DNA from: Shewanella sp. SNU WT4
Lineage (GTDB): Bacteria > Pseudomonadota > Gammaproteobacteria > Enterobacterales > Shewanellaceae
DNA: 64,000 bases
Assembly: GCF_006494715.1 (NCBI RefSeq)
Contig: NZ_CP041151.1
Span: 3,162,001-3,226,000, forward strand
Direction: 5' to 3'
Under the pieces are notes generated by a model, which was not told the DNA's origin, did no database searches, and saw nothing but the letters and a program-made list of their open reading frames with translations. Of this stretch, positions 34,743-38,277 are shown piece after piece (position 1 is the stretch's first letter; the number at the start of each line of letters is the position of its first letter). The position numbers and the translations under genes are program-made.

Positions 34743-34814
34743 TGTAGTGGTACGGTGAATTTGGCCACCTAGTTAGAGGTGATATCATCACCTCATAAGT
34801 TAACAGGTGACACT

Positions 34815-35123
34815 ATGAAAAAACGTACAAGAAGACTGTTTAGTGCAGAATTTAAACTCGAATCTGCACAACTAGTACTAGACCAAAATTACTCAATTGT
34901 TGAAGCCGCTCAAGCTATGAATGTGGGCAAATCAACTATGGATAAGTGGGTTCGGCAATTAAGAGAAGAGCGACAAGGTAAGCAACCTAAAGCATCACCT
35001 ATATCACCAGAACAAATTGAAATTCGAGAGTTAAAAAAGCAACTAGCTCGCCTCCAGGAGCACAACGAAATATTAAAAAAAGCCACAGCTCTGTTGATGT
35101 CGGACTCACTGAACAATTCTTAA
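34815..35123 (+). CDS. IS911-like OrfA (transposase N-terminal part)
   Basis: 102 residues from the ATG at 34815, after an AGGTGA ribosome site. An N-terminal helix-turn-helix ([44 protein letters not shown]) binds the IS ends, and a leucine-zipper helix (about 70-92) drives dimerisation. Near the end, TTA AAA AAA GCC (35073-35084) is an A-run slippery site for -1 frameshifting into orfB, which produces the OrfAB transposase in this family. Very close in sequence to IS911 OrfA. Confidence 0.92.
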
Positions 35124-35513
35124 TAATTGAGAAACTCAGGCAGAGCTACAGCATAAAAACATTATGTGAAGTGTTCAGTATTCATCGTAGTAGTTACAAG
35201 TATTGGAGAAAACGGCCAACAACCATAAACGCAGATAAAGTAAAGCTTCGAAGTTTAGTTAGCGAAGTACACACTGCAAGTAACGGCTCGGCAGGTGCTA
35301 GAACGATTGCAGATATGGTTAGCCAGCAAGGTATCTCGCTAAGCCGTTATCGCGCCACTAAGTTGATGAAGGAGCTTGGTATAGTTAGCTGTCAGGTACC
35401 TAAGCACAAATACCGAAAAGCGACACTAGAACACATTGAAATCCCTAATCACCTAGGTCGACAATTCGCTGTCACTGCTCCGAATGAAGTTTGGGTTGGT
35501 GATGTCACCTACG
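35081..35513 (+). CDS. IS911-like OrfB, 5' exon (interrupted by group II intron)
   Basis: Read in the -1 frame relative to orfA from the A-run onward ([28 protein letters not shown]...). It includes the HTH_21 region and ends in [10 protein letters not shown], whose Asp is the first catalytic residue of the DDE triad. The intron starts after TACG; joining to 37791 gives an uninterrupted frame (D-V-T-Y-V-W-A-G-N-R-W). Without splicing, translation stops within the first intron bases. Confidence 0.88.
35502..35512. repeat. Sequence around the group II intron insertion point
   Basis: The last exon bases contain GGTGATGTCACC (35498-35509), a perfect 12-bp palindrome, four bases upstream of the exon-intron junction at 35513/35514. 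Such a hairpin could help intron insertion into single-stranded DNA; this is inference. Confidence 0.5.
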
Positions 35514-36176
35514 GTGTGCCCGGAGTTCAGCACTAGCATGGAATGCTTTAACGAACCACGAGTCTATCTGAAATACATGAACACTACGGTAGGAGCTACA
35601 TTGTTTATGGCACTATCTGGTTGTGCAGATAGTTGAGTCTGAGCGGCAGTGACTTATCGTATGCTGATAAGGTGATGTAACTCGCTGACAACGGGGAGTG
35701 AGGCGAATTCGTTAAGCCAAGATGCTCCTCTAGACTAAGTATTGGACGGATGAAGAACATGAACCGGTTAACCCGCATCTATGGGCTGAAACGTCGCCAT
35801 TGCCTACACGAATTAACAGGCAATATGGTGCTGCAATAGTGCTAAACGTATGGGCACTATTGCCGAATTAATGAGTAATAAATATGTACTTATTAATGGA
35901 TAAACGTTAAATCACAATTCTGCGTTTAAGCATCATCACCTTACAGTACGATAAGGTCAAAGACTGCGATCGGCATCCACCCCAATATGTTTGAGTTCAG
36001 GTAGATAAACCGGGGAAGGTTTGTTTTGAATGCTAAGGGAGCATGACCCTGATGACAAACAAGCTGGCGGAGTGTTCGTAGTAGTCTGAGATGGGGAAAG
36101 CCCATTACATGGCGAAGGGACACAGTTTAATTGATTTGCGTCAGCAAATTACCTGACCTTAATGAGGTGAAGACCT

Positions 36177-37700
36177 TTGATAATCAGCGAACAGCAACGT
36201 AAATTAGCAACATGGACAGCAACCGATAAAACGCGTCGCGTTAATCGACTGCTGCGCCTTATCAGTCACCCGCATTGGCTTCGCCAAGCGGCTGAAGTAA
36301 CGCTTTCTTCAAAAGGTGCTAAAACGCCTGGTGTTGATGGAATAACAAAGATTCATATACAGGCTTATTTGGCTGGTTATCTTGATGAGATCAGAGATGA
36401 TCTGCTGTCAGGTAACTATCAACCGATGCCTGCTAGACGGATCTATATTCCCAAGGCCAATGGAAAGCTACGTCCTTTAGGTATACCAACGCTTAGGGAT
36501 AGAATAGTTCAACGTGCCATGCTCATGGCAATGGAGCCGATATGGGAAAATGATTTTCATTCGTTGTCCTATGGCTTTAGACCAGAGCGCAGTGTCCATC
36601 ACGCCATTCGCACGGTTAAACTACAAATGACCGAATCCAATGAGCCTCGAGGTCGCTGGATAATTGAAGGAGACTTATCAAGCTATTTTGATACAGTTCA
36701 CCATCGATTATTGATGAAATGTGTTCGTAAACGGATCAACTGCCGTCGATTTAATGATTTGCTTTGGCGCTTCATTAAAGCTGGACACATTGAACGTAAC
36801 CTATTTTGTGCAACAAGCGAAGGCGTACCACAAGGTGGTGTAATTTCTCCGTTATTGTCAAACATAATGCTTAATGAGTTCGATCAATATTTGGATAAAT
36901 GTTACTTGAGCAAGAAAGCCCGTAAAGACCGCTGGTACTGGAACCACAGTATCAAAATCAAGCGAAAACCTGCGGTTGAGGAAAACAGACAGTGGAAACC
37001 TGCCGTTGCTTATTGCCGTTATGCTGATGACTTTCTAGTGATTGTCAAAGGCAATAAACAACAAGCAGAGGCAATTCGTGACCAATGTCGACACTTCCTA
37101 GAAGGTAAGCTGCAACTCACGTTAAATATGGATAAAACTCATATTACACATGTGAATGACGGTTTTATATTTCTCGGACATAGGATCATTCGAAAGCGTG
37201 GACCTAAGGGAAATATGCGAGTGGTGACTGGTATTCCAAACGGTAAAGCCAAAGCATTTTCTCATTCATTGAGTCAGGCTTTATCAGGGGATCATAGCTG
37301 TAGCAAGATAGACAAAGTGGAACAACTCAATCGCAAACTTAAGGGTTGGGCACAATTTTATCGACATACTGATTACACCGCGAAAGTTTACAGCAAAATT
37401 GATCGTATTATTTTCTGGAAACTCGCTAAGTGGTTGGCTAGAAAATATCGTTGTTCTATTAAATCGTTAATGATGACATGGATCAAACGTCCAACACCAA
37501 ATCAGGCAATGACATGGGTGTTATTTGGTAAAAGCAATCGTGGAAATTTATGTGGCGCGTCACTATTTAGATTAGTGAGTAGCCCTAAATTACCCTTTAG
37601 ATGGCGATCACCAGAAGCAAACTCCTACCTCAGAGATGAAATTAGAAATACTGTCATGTCTCGCTATAGCGATGTTGCCATGGCTGTTAGCCACAATTAA
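36177..37700 (+). CDS. ltrA: Group II intron reverse transcriptase/maturase
   Basis: 507 residues from a TTG start with GAGGTG upstream. RT domains: the RT-1/2 region LRPLGIPTLRDRIVQRAM, FRPERSVHHAI, EGDLSSYFDTVHH (RT-3), EGVPQGGVISPLLSNIMLNEFD (RT-4) and the catalytic YADDF (RT-5). A maturase (X) domain follows (about 390-480). No C-terminal HNH endonuclease, so retrohoming would depend on nicks or replication forks. It should promote splicing and insertion of the host intron. The copy at the right edge of the window looks identical over the shared part. Confidence 0.95.
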   Translation: MIISEQQRKLATWTATDKTRRVNRLLRLISHPHWLRQAAEVTLSSKGAKTPGVDGITKIHIQAYLAGYLDEIRDDLLSGNYQPMPARRIYIPKANGKLRPLGIPTLRDRIVQRAMLMAMEPIWENDFHSLSYGFRPERSVHHAIRTVKLQMTESNEPRGRWIIEGDLSSYFDTVHHRLLMKCVRKRINCRRFNDLLWRFIKAGHIERNLFCATSEGVPQGGVISPLLSNIMLNEFDQYLDKCYLSKKARKDRWYWNHSIKIKRKPAVEENRQWKPAVAYCRYADDFLVIVKGNKQQAEAIRDQCRHFLEGKLQLTLNMDKTHITHVNDGFIFLGHRIIRKRGPKGNMRVVTGIPNGKAKAFSHSLSQALSGDHSCSKIDKVEQLNRKLKGWAQFYRHTDYTAKVYSKIDRIIFWKLAKWLARKYRCSIKSLMMTWIKRPTPNQAMTWVLFGKSNRGNLCGASLFRLVSSPKLPFRWRSPEANSYLRDEIRNTVMSRYSDVAMAVSHN

Positions 37701-37705
37701 GCGGA

Positions 37706-37739
37706 GAGCCGTATGCGCTGAAAGGTGCACGTACGGTTC
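37706..37739 (+). ncRNA. Group II intron domain V
   Basis: 34-nt hairpin beginning GAGCCGTATG and ending CGTACGGTTC, with AGC in the lower stem and GAAA in the loop, a near-canonical group II domain V just after the maturase stop. Confidence 0.93.
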
Positions 37740-37790
37740 GGAGAGGAGAAGCAGAGAAATAGTTCGACTACGCTCTGCCTCTTACTCTAC

Positions 37791-38269
37791 TGTGGGCTGG
37801 TAACCGCTGGATGTACTTAGCTGTTGTGATTGATCTATTCGCTCGTAAAGTCATTGGGTGGGCTATGTCATTATCACCAGATAGCCGTTTAACGGGCAAA
37901 GCGCTTTCGATGGCCTATGAAGGTCGAGGTAAACCTAAAGATGTTATGTTCCATAGCGATCAAGGGACTCACTATACAAGCAGAAGATATCGGCAATTAT
38001 TATGGAGATACCAGCTCAAACAAAGTTTATCTCGACGTGGGAATTGTTGGGATAATAGTCCAATGGAACGCTTTTTTAGGAGCCTTAAGACAGAATGGAT
38101 ACCAACGACAGGGTACCGTAACTTTGCAGAAGCTCAGCAAGAAATTACACGATACATAATTGGATATTATTGTCAGCTTCGCCCACATCAATATAACGGC
38201 GGACTGACACCCAATGAATCAGAACGATTGTTCTGGTTAAGCTCTAAAACTGTGGCCAATATTAGTTGA
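37791..38269 (+). CDS. IS911-like OrfB, 3' exon
   Basis: Continues the transposase after the intron: [27 protein letters not shown] ... The second catalytic Asp is in [12 protein letters not shown] and the Glu in [15 protein letters not shown], so the DDE triad is complete once exons are joined. The stop lies 8 bp before the right end of the element. A 152-residue reading frame starting at the ATG at 37811 is only a fragment of this gene. Confidence 0.9.
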
Positions 38270-38277
38270 CCACTACA

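Follow-up and report, generated by a model that had tools for sequence, protein, structure and literature searches.

A mobile group II intron that probably takes transposase active-site codons as its address in Shewanella sp. SNU WT4

Introduction

Why does a group II intron sit among the active-site codons of a transposase gene, and does it belong to that one gene? The question is raised by a 64,000-nucleotide stretch of Shewanella sp. SNU WT4 (contig NZ_CP041151.1, positions 3,162,001 to 3,226,000; hereafter the window), in which an insertion sequence (IS) of the IS3 family, here called IS-A, is interrupted by such an intron. A first-pass annotation regarded the pair as a two-layer selfish element, in which the IS spreads the intron and the maturase of the intron may set how much transposase is made. 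That interpretation is partly supported: carriage of the intron by the IS has support, and the tie to one IS does not. The reading that explains the data best, to which we give a probability of about 77%, is that of a mobile group II intron of the E.c.I4 type (class A) whose home is IS transposase genes and whose address appears to be a set of active-site codons.

The intron and its host insertion sequence

IS-A occupies 34743..38277 on the plus strand and is flanked by a CCT repeat at 34740-34742 and 38278-38280. Its inverted repeats, identical at 21 of 32 positions (TGTAGTGG...), have their ends at 34743 and 38277, and without the intron the element measures 1,258 bp. The target duplication length expected for the IS3 family is 3 bp; the TG...CA ends, the inverted repeats and the short duplications of two copies (CCT/CCT and GAT/GAT) all agree with that family. 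So does the coding organization. OrfA (34815..35123, plus strand) carries a helix-turn-helix (HTH) region matching PF01527 and part of the IS3 transposase profile NF033516, and is followed by OrfB in the -1 frame relative to it, with a candidate -1 frameshift site in an A7 run at 35075..35081 (plus strand; TTA AAA AAA as read in the sequence). The OrfB 5' exon (35082..35513, plus strand) ends in GAT GTC ACC TAC G, encoding D-V-T-Y, and matches NF033516 up to profile position 225. The 3' exon (37791..38269, plus strand) matches NF033516 and rve and, read from its first Met, joins NCBIfam NF033516 at profile position 233. The NF033516 and rve matches on the exons of this DDE transposase bear out the earlier description of the host as an IS911-like, IS3-family element.

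The intron itself spans 35514..37790 (plus strand, 2,277 bp), and every part that the first-pass annotation had named is present. It opens with GTGTG at 35514, in agreement with the GUGYG consensus. Domains V and VI lie at 37704..37790 (plus strand), where Rfam RF00029 is matched over the whole model (68.4 bits, E 2.4e-11); as the match ends at 37790, so does the intron. A reverse transcriptase (RT)/maturase of 507 aa with a TTG start is encoded at 36177..37700 (plus strand); it scores 341 bits against TIGR04416 (cut-off 300) and contains Pfam RVT_1 and GIIM, and no Pfam match to an endonuclease domain was found in the intron open reading frame (ORF). Folding of the intron RNA covered domains V and VI and the regions of the exon-binding sites (EBS). 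A stable hairpin (z -3.13) holds EBS1 (CGTATG, 35847..35852, plus strand) in its loop, and the short EBS2 stretch (ACGTC, 35791..35795, plus strand) taken alone is no better than shuffles (z 0.29).

The boundaries can be checked against nature. Joining 35513 to 37791 restores the OrfB frame as claimed (DVTY-V-WAGNRW), and intron-free IS-A copies with exons 92-96% identical exist in at least three other genomes of the genus (L104, L105, L106), a lower bound as two candidates were scored per genome. In all three, base 771 of the 5' exon abuts base 1 of the 3' exon exactly at the predicted junction, so a junction that makes sense by chance is rejected, as are boundaries that would break the frame. 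Both ORFs are open in L105; in L106 OrfB is not. These natural alleles are consistent with splicing and retrohoming. The unspliced OrfB meets a stop 7 codons beyond DVTY; a full transposase would thus appear to need both a -1 frameshift and splicing, as had been proposed, and the need of transposition for splicing, like splicing and retrohoming themselves, is read here from sequence.

The relatives occupy catalytic codons of dissimilar transposases

Relatives of the intron were collected by a scan of named genomes, and the best 80 of 143 loci, with RTs 61-99% identical, were used. The flanking exons were tested apart (E 1e-4) against a panel made of the other loci's own exons, self excluded. 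Transposase was recognized on both sides in 58 of the 80 loci, on the 5' side only in 1, on the 3' side only in 10 and on neither in 4; the remaining 7 have one side too short to test, and six of these show transposase on the testable side while L066 shows none. Counting L021 and L083, which NCBIfam assigns to IS6 (L021 by both flanks, L083 by its 5' flank, the one tested), at least one side is transposase in 77 of 80 loci. The loci with transposase on neither side are L053, L066 and L071, and the flanks of L053 and L071 are unrecognizable. Independent profiles agree: among the 67 3' exons with at least 40 open codons, IS3 and Pfam rve were each found in 63, and the 62 5' exons scanned gave IS3 in 58 and IS6 in 2.

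The position within the transposase is equally constant. The catalytic Asp is invariant in 62 of 62 5' exons. No boundary could be set on the 5' side in 14 of the 80 loci and on the 3' side in 4. Where a 5' boundary was set, the exon ends in strict D-x-T-Y in 55 of 66 and in D-x-[TS]-[YF] in 59 of 66. As some boundaries were picked with help of the exon motif, the fair figure is that for the 50 boundaries placed by the intron 5' motif alone, 46 of which have D-x-[TS]-[YF] at the end of the exon (exceptions L030, L054, L057 and L066). The first base of the 3' exon is T in 73 of 76. A mostly beta-proteobacterial branch (L072, L077, L079, L080, L082, L083, L087 and others) has introns starting with GTACGCC rather than GTGYGCC.

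This placement is no general habit of group II introns, an explanation that was rejected: among 20 controls taken from beyond the clade, whose RTs are 27.6-37.5% identical, none had transposase on both sides. The 5' side of one of them, L165, does match IS6; that transposase is a neighbour and not a target, for it reads uninterrupted past DETY.

Over 78 loci, intron ORFs reach at least 90% identity in 117 pairs, and the 3' exons of these are less than 75% identical in 103 pairs, 75-90% in 7 and at least 90% in 7. L101 and L102, which repeat L012 and L062 (ORF and 3' exon 100%), are excluded from this count; with them the figure is 116 of 132. For the 16 pairs with intron ORFs at least 99% identical, the 3' exons fall below 75% in 10, at 75-90% in 1 and at or above 90% in 5; pairs of either kind are not independent of one another. 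In one Rhizobium genome two intron ORFs are identical and their exons 55% alike, and in one Roseibium genome three near-identical introns lie in dissimilar ISs. Since near-identical introns occupy the same catalytic codons of very dissimilar transposases, the intron is not tied to IS-A, and a retroelement addressed to active-site codons describes it better than a part of one IS does.

By record titles, the 80 loci comprise 72 Pseudomonadota, 3 Nitrospirota, 2 Bacteroidota, 1 Planctomycetota, 1 Spirochaetota and 1 unplaced. The other phyla are uncertain, because most of the outliers come from metagenome bins or mixed culture; L026 and L028 are an identical sequence from two mixed cultures, counted as two of the 80 rows. 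A class-wide search returned one other genome at E 1e-60, and a phylum search that scored no more than three candidates in any genome showed a gap between 69% and 43% RT identity.

Guide RNA and target codons

In the window, EBS2 pairs with the intron-binding site IBS2 (GATGT, 35501..35505, plus strand), which contains the catalytic Asp codon (35501-35503), and EBS1 pairs with IBS1 (CCTACG, 35508..35513, plus strand), which contains the Tyr codon, with a mismatch at -5. The proposed mechanism follows this layout. EBS2 and EBS1 would pair with codons of the conserved motif Asp-x-Thr-Tyr, and insertion would take place one base past the Tyr codon, ahead of a T. A guide G facing the third bases of GAY and TAY would accept C or U, so that one intron could fit many ISs. 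Retrohoming would then take the intron from IS to IS, and DNA transposition of the IS would bring it to new loci, which the IS can do because splicing restores the transposase.

Pairing was scored for 64 introns, namely 62 of the 80 loci together with the complete IS-A copy of the window (L001) and one home copy in another IS (L004). EBS2 lies opposite exon positions -9 to -13 and EBS1 opposite -1 to -6. At -11, where the Asp codon has its third base, T stands in 34 exons and C in 30, and the EBS2 guide base is G in 63 of 64; at -2, the corresponding base of the Tyr codon, T stands in 32 exons, C in 30 and G in 2, and the EBS1 guide base is G in 55 of 64. With G at these two guide positions either pyrimidine pairs. 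The fixed positions -13, -12, -9, -6, -4 and -3 form Watson-Crick pairs in 61-64 of 64. The clearest retargeting of the guide would be that of the IS6 hosts L021 and L083, which stand apart on the tree: their motif is D-E-T-Y, exon position -9 is A, and EBS2 starts with T instead of A.

On balance, we lean towards a broader rule, in which the whole clade (Alpha-, Beta- and Gammaproteobacteria, possibly other phyla) is specialized on the catalytic codons of DDE transposases through a guide built on the genetic code, and has crossed from IS3 to IS6. Such a guide would place G opposite two synonymous pyrimidines and an unpaired two-base linker over another synonymous position, and would be strict at the bases on which the identity of Asp, Thr and Tyr depends.

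Copies and empty sites in the SNU WT4 genome

A genome search for the IS and the intron gave eight matches (L001-L008). The first-pass annotation had overlooked a second intron-bearing IS-A copy in the window (L002), which runs from 62150 on the minus strand and is cut by the window end (62150..64000), with domains V and VI at 62637-62723 as a second RF00029 match. Beyond the window it is complete; it differs from L001 at 5 of 3,535 bases and has its own duplication, GAT/GAT, in place of CCT. L003 and L008 (1363369-1368148) are pieces of a single intron-bearing IS-A with an IS3-type gene (1366800-1367690) in between. L004, L005 and L006 belong to a second IS type, IS-B, with exons 62-69% identical to those of IS-A, and the introns of L004 and L005 show only 4 and 6 mismatches to the IS-A intron in 2,277 bases. 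L006 is cut off inside the intron, and L007 is a fragment. No intron-free IS-A or IS-B is among the eight matches in this genome.

The IS-B copies L005 and L006, at separate loci, both read GTATG and not GTGTG at the intron 5' end. If this change at intron position 3 harms splicing, as we infer, it will have travelled as DNA. Eleven intron single-nucleotide polymorphisms (SNPs) distinguish L001-L006 and were polarized with four introns of other Shewanella. Derived 1479G and 1997T are common to L001 and L002, and derived 2144T is found in these two IS-A copies as well as in the IS-B copies L004 and L005, whereas the IS-A copies L003 and L007 retain C. The SNPs are few and position 653 conflicts with the others, so exchange or repeated mutation has to be allowed for. 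We read two modes of movement from these sequences: the intron may hop between IS types, and the IS may carry it to new loci. The claim that the IS spreads the intron thus holds best for IS-A, with two copies, different target duplications and two common derived intron SNPs; the case of IS-B is weaker, for the change at position 3 common to L005 and L006 stands beside the lack of a 3-bp duplication around L004 and L005.

Sites that the intron has not entered were found as well. The genome has 41 IS3 profile matches, many of them pieces, and among them are 13 distinct intact D-x-T-Y sites that are empty (L181-L186 and L189-L195). All 13 mismatch the guide at -10 and -1, with a guide match of 7.0-7.5 of 11 against 9.5 for IS-A and IS-B, the well-paired types, in which 6 of 6 copies are occupied. 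L187, L188, L202 and L203 have no site of their own by the D-x-T-Y pattern, and the one given for L188 coincides in its coordinates with that of L194. That occupancy follows guide match at home is suggestive only, as the comparison is one of two IS types with three.

Weighing the evidence

A number of observations weigh against the codon-address reading or weaken the support for it, among them two named above, the testing of exons on a panel of the other loci's own exons and the use of the exon motif in setting some boundaries. Of the 80 loci, 18 are absent from the pairing set: 11 had no 5' boundary, and 7 were removed by hand, the latter including the odd loci L026, L028, L053 and L071. Pairing is loose: -10 is unpaired in 24 of 64 introns, -5 in 37 and -1 in 27. 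Real pairing averages 8.74 of 11 against a shuffle mean of 8.23 (s.d. 0.08), and 0 of 2,000 exon shuffles reach it, in a test that ignores relatedness. Covariation of guide and target is partial, and tests that allow for relatedness lean the right way with none significant. Independent pairs at -9 number 3 the same way and 0 the other, and one of the three states that change, L030, does not pair; the corresponding counts are about 3.4 against 0.0 for G at -10, about 4.0 against 0.0 for a purine at -1 and 3.1 against 0.7 for A at -1. The conserved guide G could have other reasons. Occupied sites in other Shewanella carry the -10 and -1 mismatches that mark the empty sites at home, and no 3-bp duplication surrounds L004 and L005. 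Finally, five sites that fit GAYGTNNCNTAYGT outside IS elements are empty and a reversed control pattern gives an equal number, so this pairing alone is not decisive.

These points have to be set against what other explanations can account for. Intron and IS might form a fixed composite that spreads as one unit by IS transposition, with the intron rarely or never moving alone. All IS-A and IS-B copies found at home that reach the site do carry the intron, perfect duplications of different sequence flank the two complete IS-A copies, one intron change is common to L005 and L006 at separate loci, and neither exon nor intron differs in a few pairs from different organisms (L073/L074/L082). A single shared history is nevertheless not what the sequences record, for near-identical introns lie in ISs whose 3' exons share 31-71% identity, among them the copies within one genome of Rhizobium (intron 100%, exon 55%) and within one of Roseibium; intron-free IS-A copies exist; and the genealogies of IS and intron disagree over 2144T, found in IS-A and IS-B, and the C of L003 and L007. 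A fixed unit is contradicted for the clade, and we consider the composite improbable overall.

Slightly less probable still is that the intron serves as a regulator, its splicing and maturase limiting transposase and keeping IS copy number low to the benefit of IS or host. The early stop in unspliced OrfB and the apparent requirement for both frameshift and splicing would suit this role, but entry into many dissimilar transposases is more what one expects of a parasite than of a dedicated regulator. We give the least credit to a decaying remnant, in which the intron has lost its splicing and the IS copies are dead. GTATG in L005 and L006, the truncation of L006 inside the intron and the splitting of L003 by an insertion look like decay; the window copy, however, has OrfA, both OrfB exons, the RT, domains V and VI and both guides intact, and the near-identical pair of IS-A copies with intact duplications points to activity not long ago. 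We therefore keep to the mobile intron addressed to active-site codons.

The broader codon-address rule would be the more interesting part. If it holds, the intron addresses a protein active site and not a gene, an IS could hardly escape by synonymous change, and the crossing from IS3 to IS6 would have occurred on two branches. It suggests a general rule for a wide host range, namely to target codons that are essential to an enzyme and to read them with wobble-tolerant bases. Further, it makes testable what effect the intron has on IS evolution and how often ISs bring introns to new loci.

Other features of the window

IS-A sits in the intergenic span 34662-38488, in opposite orientation to its neighbours, which from reading the proteins we take to be flgE (38489-39850, minus strand) and flgF (33918-34661, minus strand). 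The insertion may be polar on downstream flagellar genes. Elsewhere in the window, an IS1634-family transposase (58005-59618) interrupts one of the IS256 family and leaves it in two parts (57022-57933 and 59631-59951), which amounts to nested ISs over 57022-59951, and an IS4-family gene lies at 55472-56776. Two tandem stretches of ~800 bp (25036-25839 and 26061-26864) are 80.6% identical and are probably a paralogous pair.

Comparison with known systems

An intron of the E.c.I4 type in IS3 transposases, IS911 included, is already published, and the window element is a further member. One report places E.c.I4 at specific positions in various IS3 elements, among them IS629, IS911, ISEc16 and ISEc31 (PMC3522654), and another lists its ORF as class A, among ORFs without an endonuclease domain (PMC3552965). 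The window intron and the E. coli copies L090 and L091 have a set position in IS3-type transposases in common with this class, and in a 65-row tree, without reference RTs of other classes, L090 falls inside the clade. L090 lies in ISEc31, and the IS3 host of L091 is presumably IS911; from host IS and identity we infer that both are E.c.I4. Compared with the window intron, the RT of these copies is 71% identical and the DNA ~69% over the full intron, at the same D-x-T-Y codon and with the same EBS2, ACGTC. EBS1 differs (CGTATG in the window, CGTAAG in L090 and L091), as do the hosts and the IS types.

In E. coli, 1,854 of 5,426 genomes contain a match over at least 80% of the intron. Of 60 records in a sample spread over these matches, 51 cover at least 80%, and every one of the 51 overlaps an annotated IS3-type/DDE transposase. 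The other 9 are truncated, and 7 of them are named ykfC (H142-H148), with a match to query bases 1-1712; as judged by sequence, ykfC is a truncated relative of the window intron RT. Among 30 E. coli records listed, one (H23) carries ltrA only, its match beginning at record base 12.

Closer to home, the introns L009, L012, L015 and L062 of other Shewanella have RTs 97-99% identical and the same site on the 5' side, but they lie in ISs other than IS-A and have TGTATG as EBS1. The Shewanella intron Sh.sp.I2, which PMC7923331 assigns to CL1/IIB1, is probably of another kind. In the literature searched, no statement of a clade-wide codon address, of the extension to IS6 or of a wobble-tolerant guide was found, although an earlier one may exist.

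Two further systems invite comparison. RmInt1 of Sinorhizobium meliloti is a group II intron whose protein has no endonuclease domain (PMC8914252). The protein encoded by the window intron is alike in this respect. RmInt1 reportedly homes to an insertion sequence, and is said to differ from the window intron in ORF class and IS family. The IStron, a self-splicing intron joined to an IS (PMC4227781), was considered as an identity and rejected, given the group II domain V and the lack of any group I Rfam match within the window. The IStron is a group I intron in a chimera with its IS, whereas the element described here is a group II intron lodged inside the active-site codons of a transposase.

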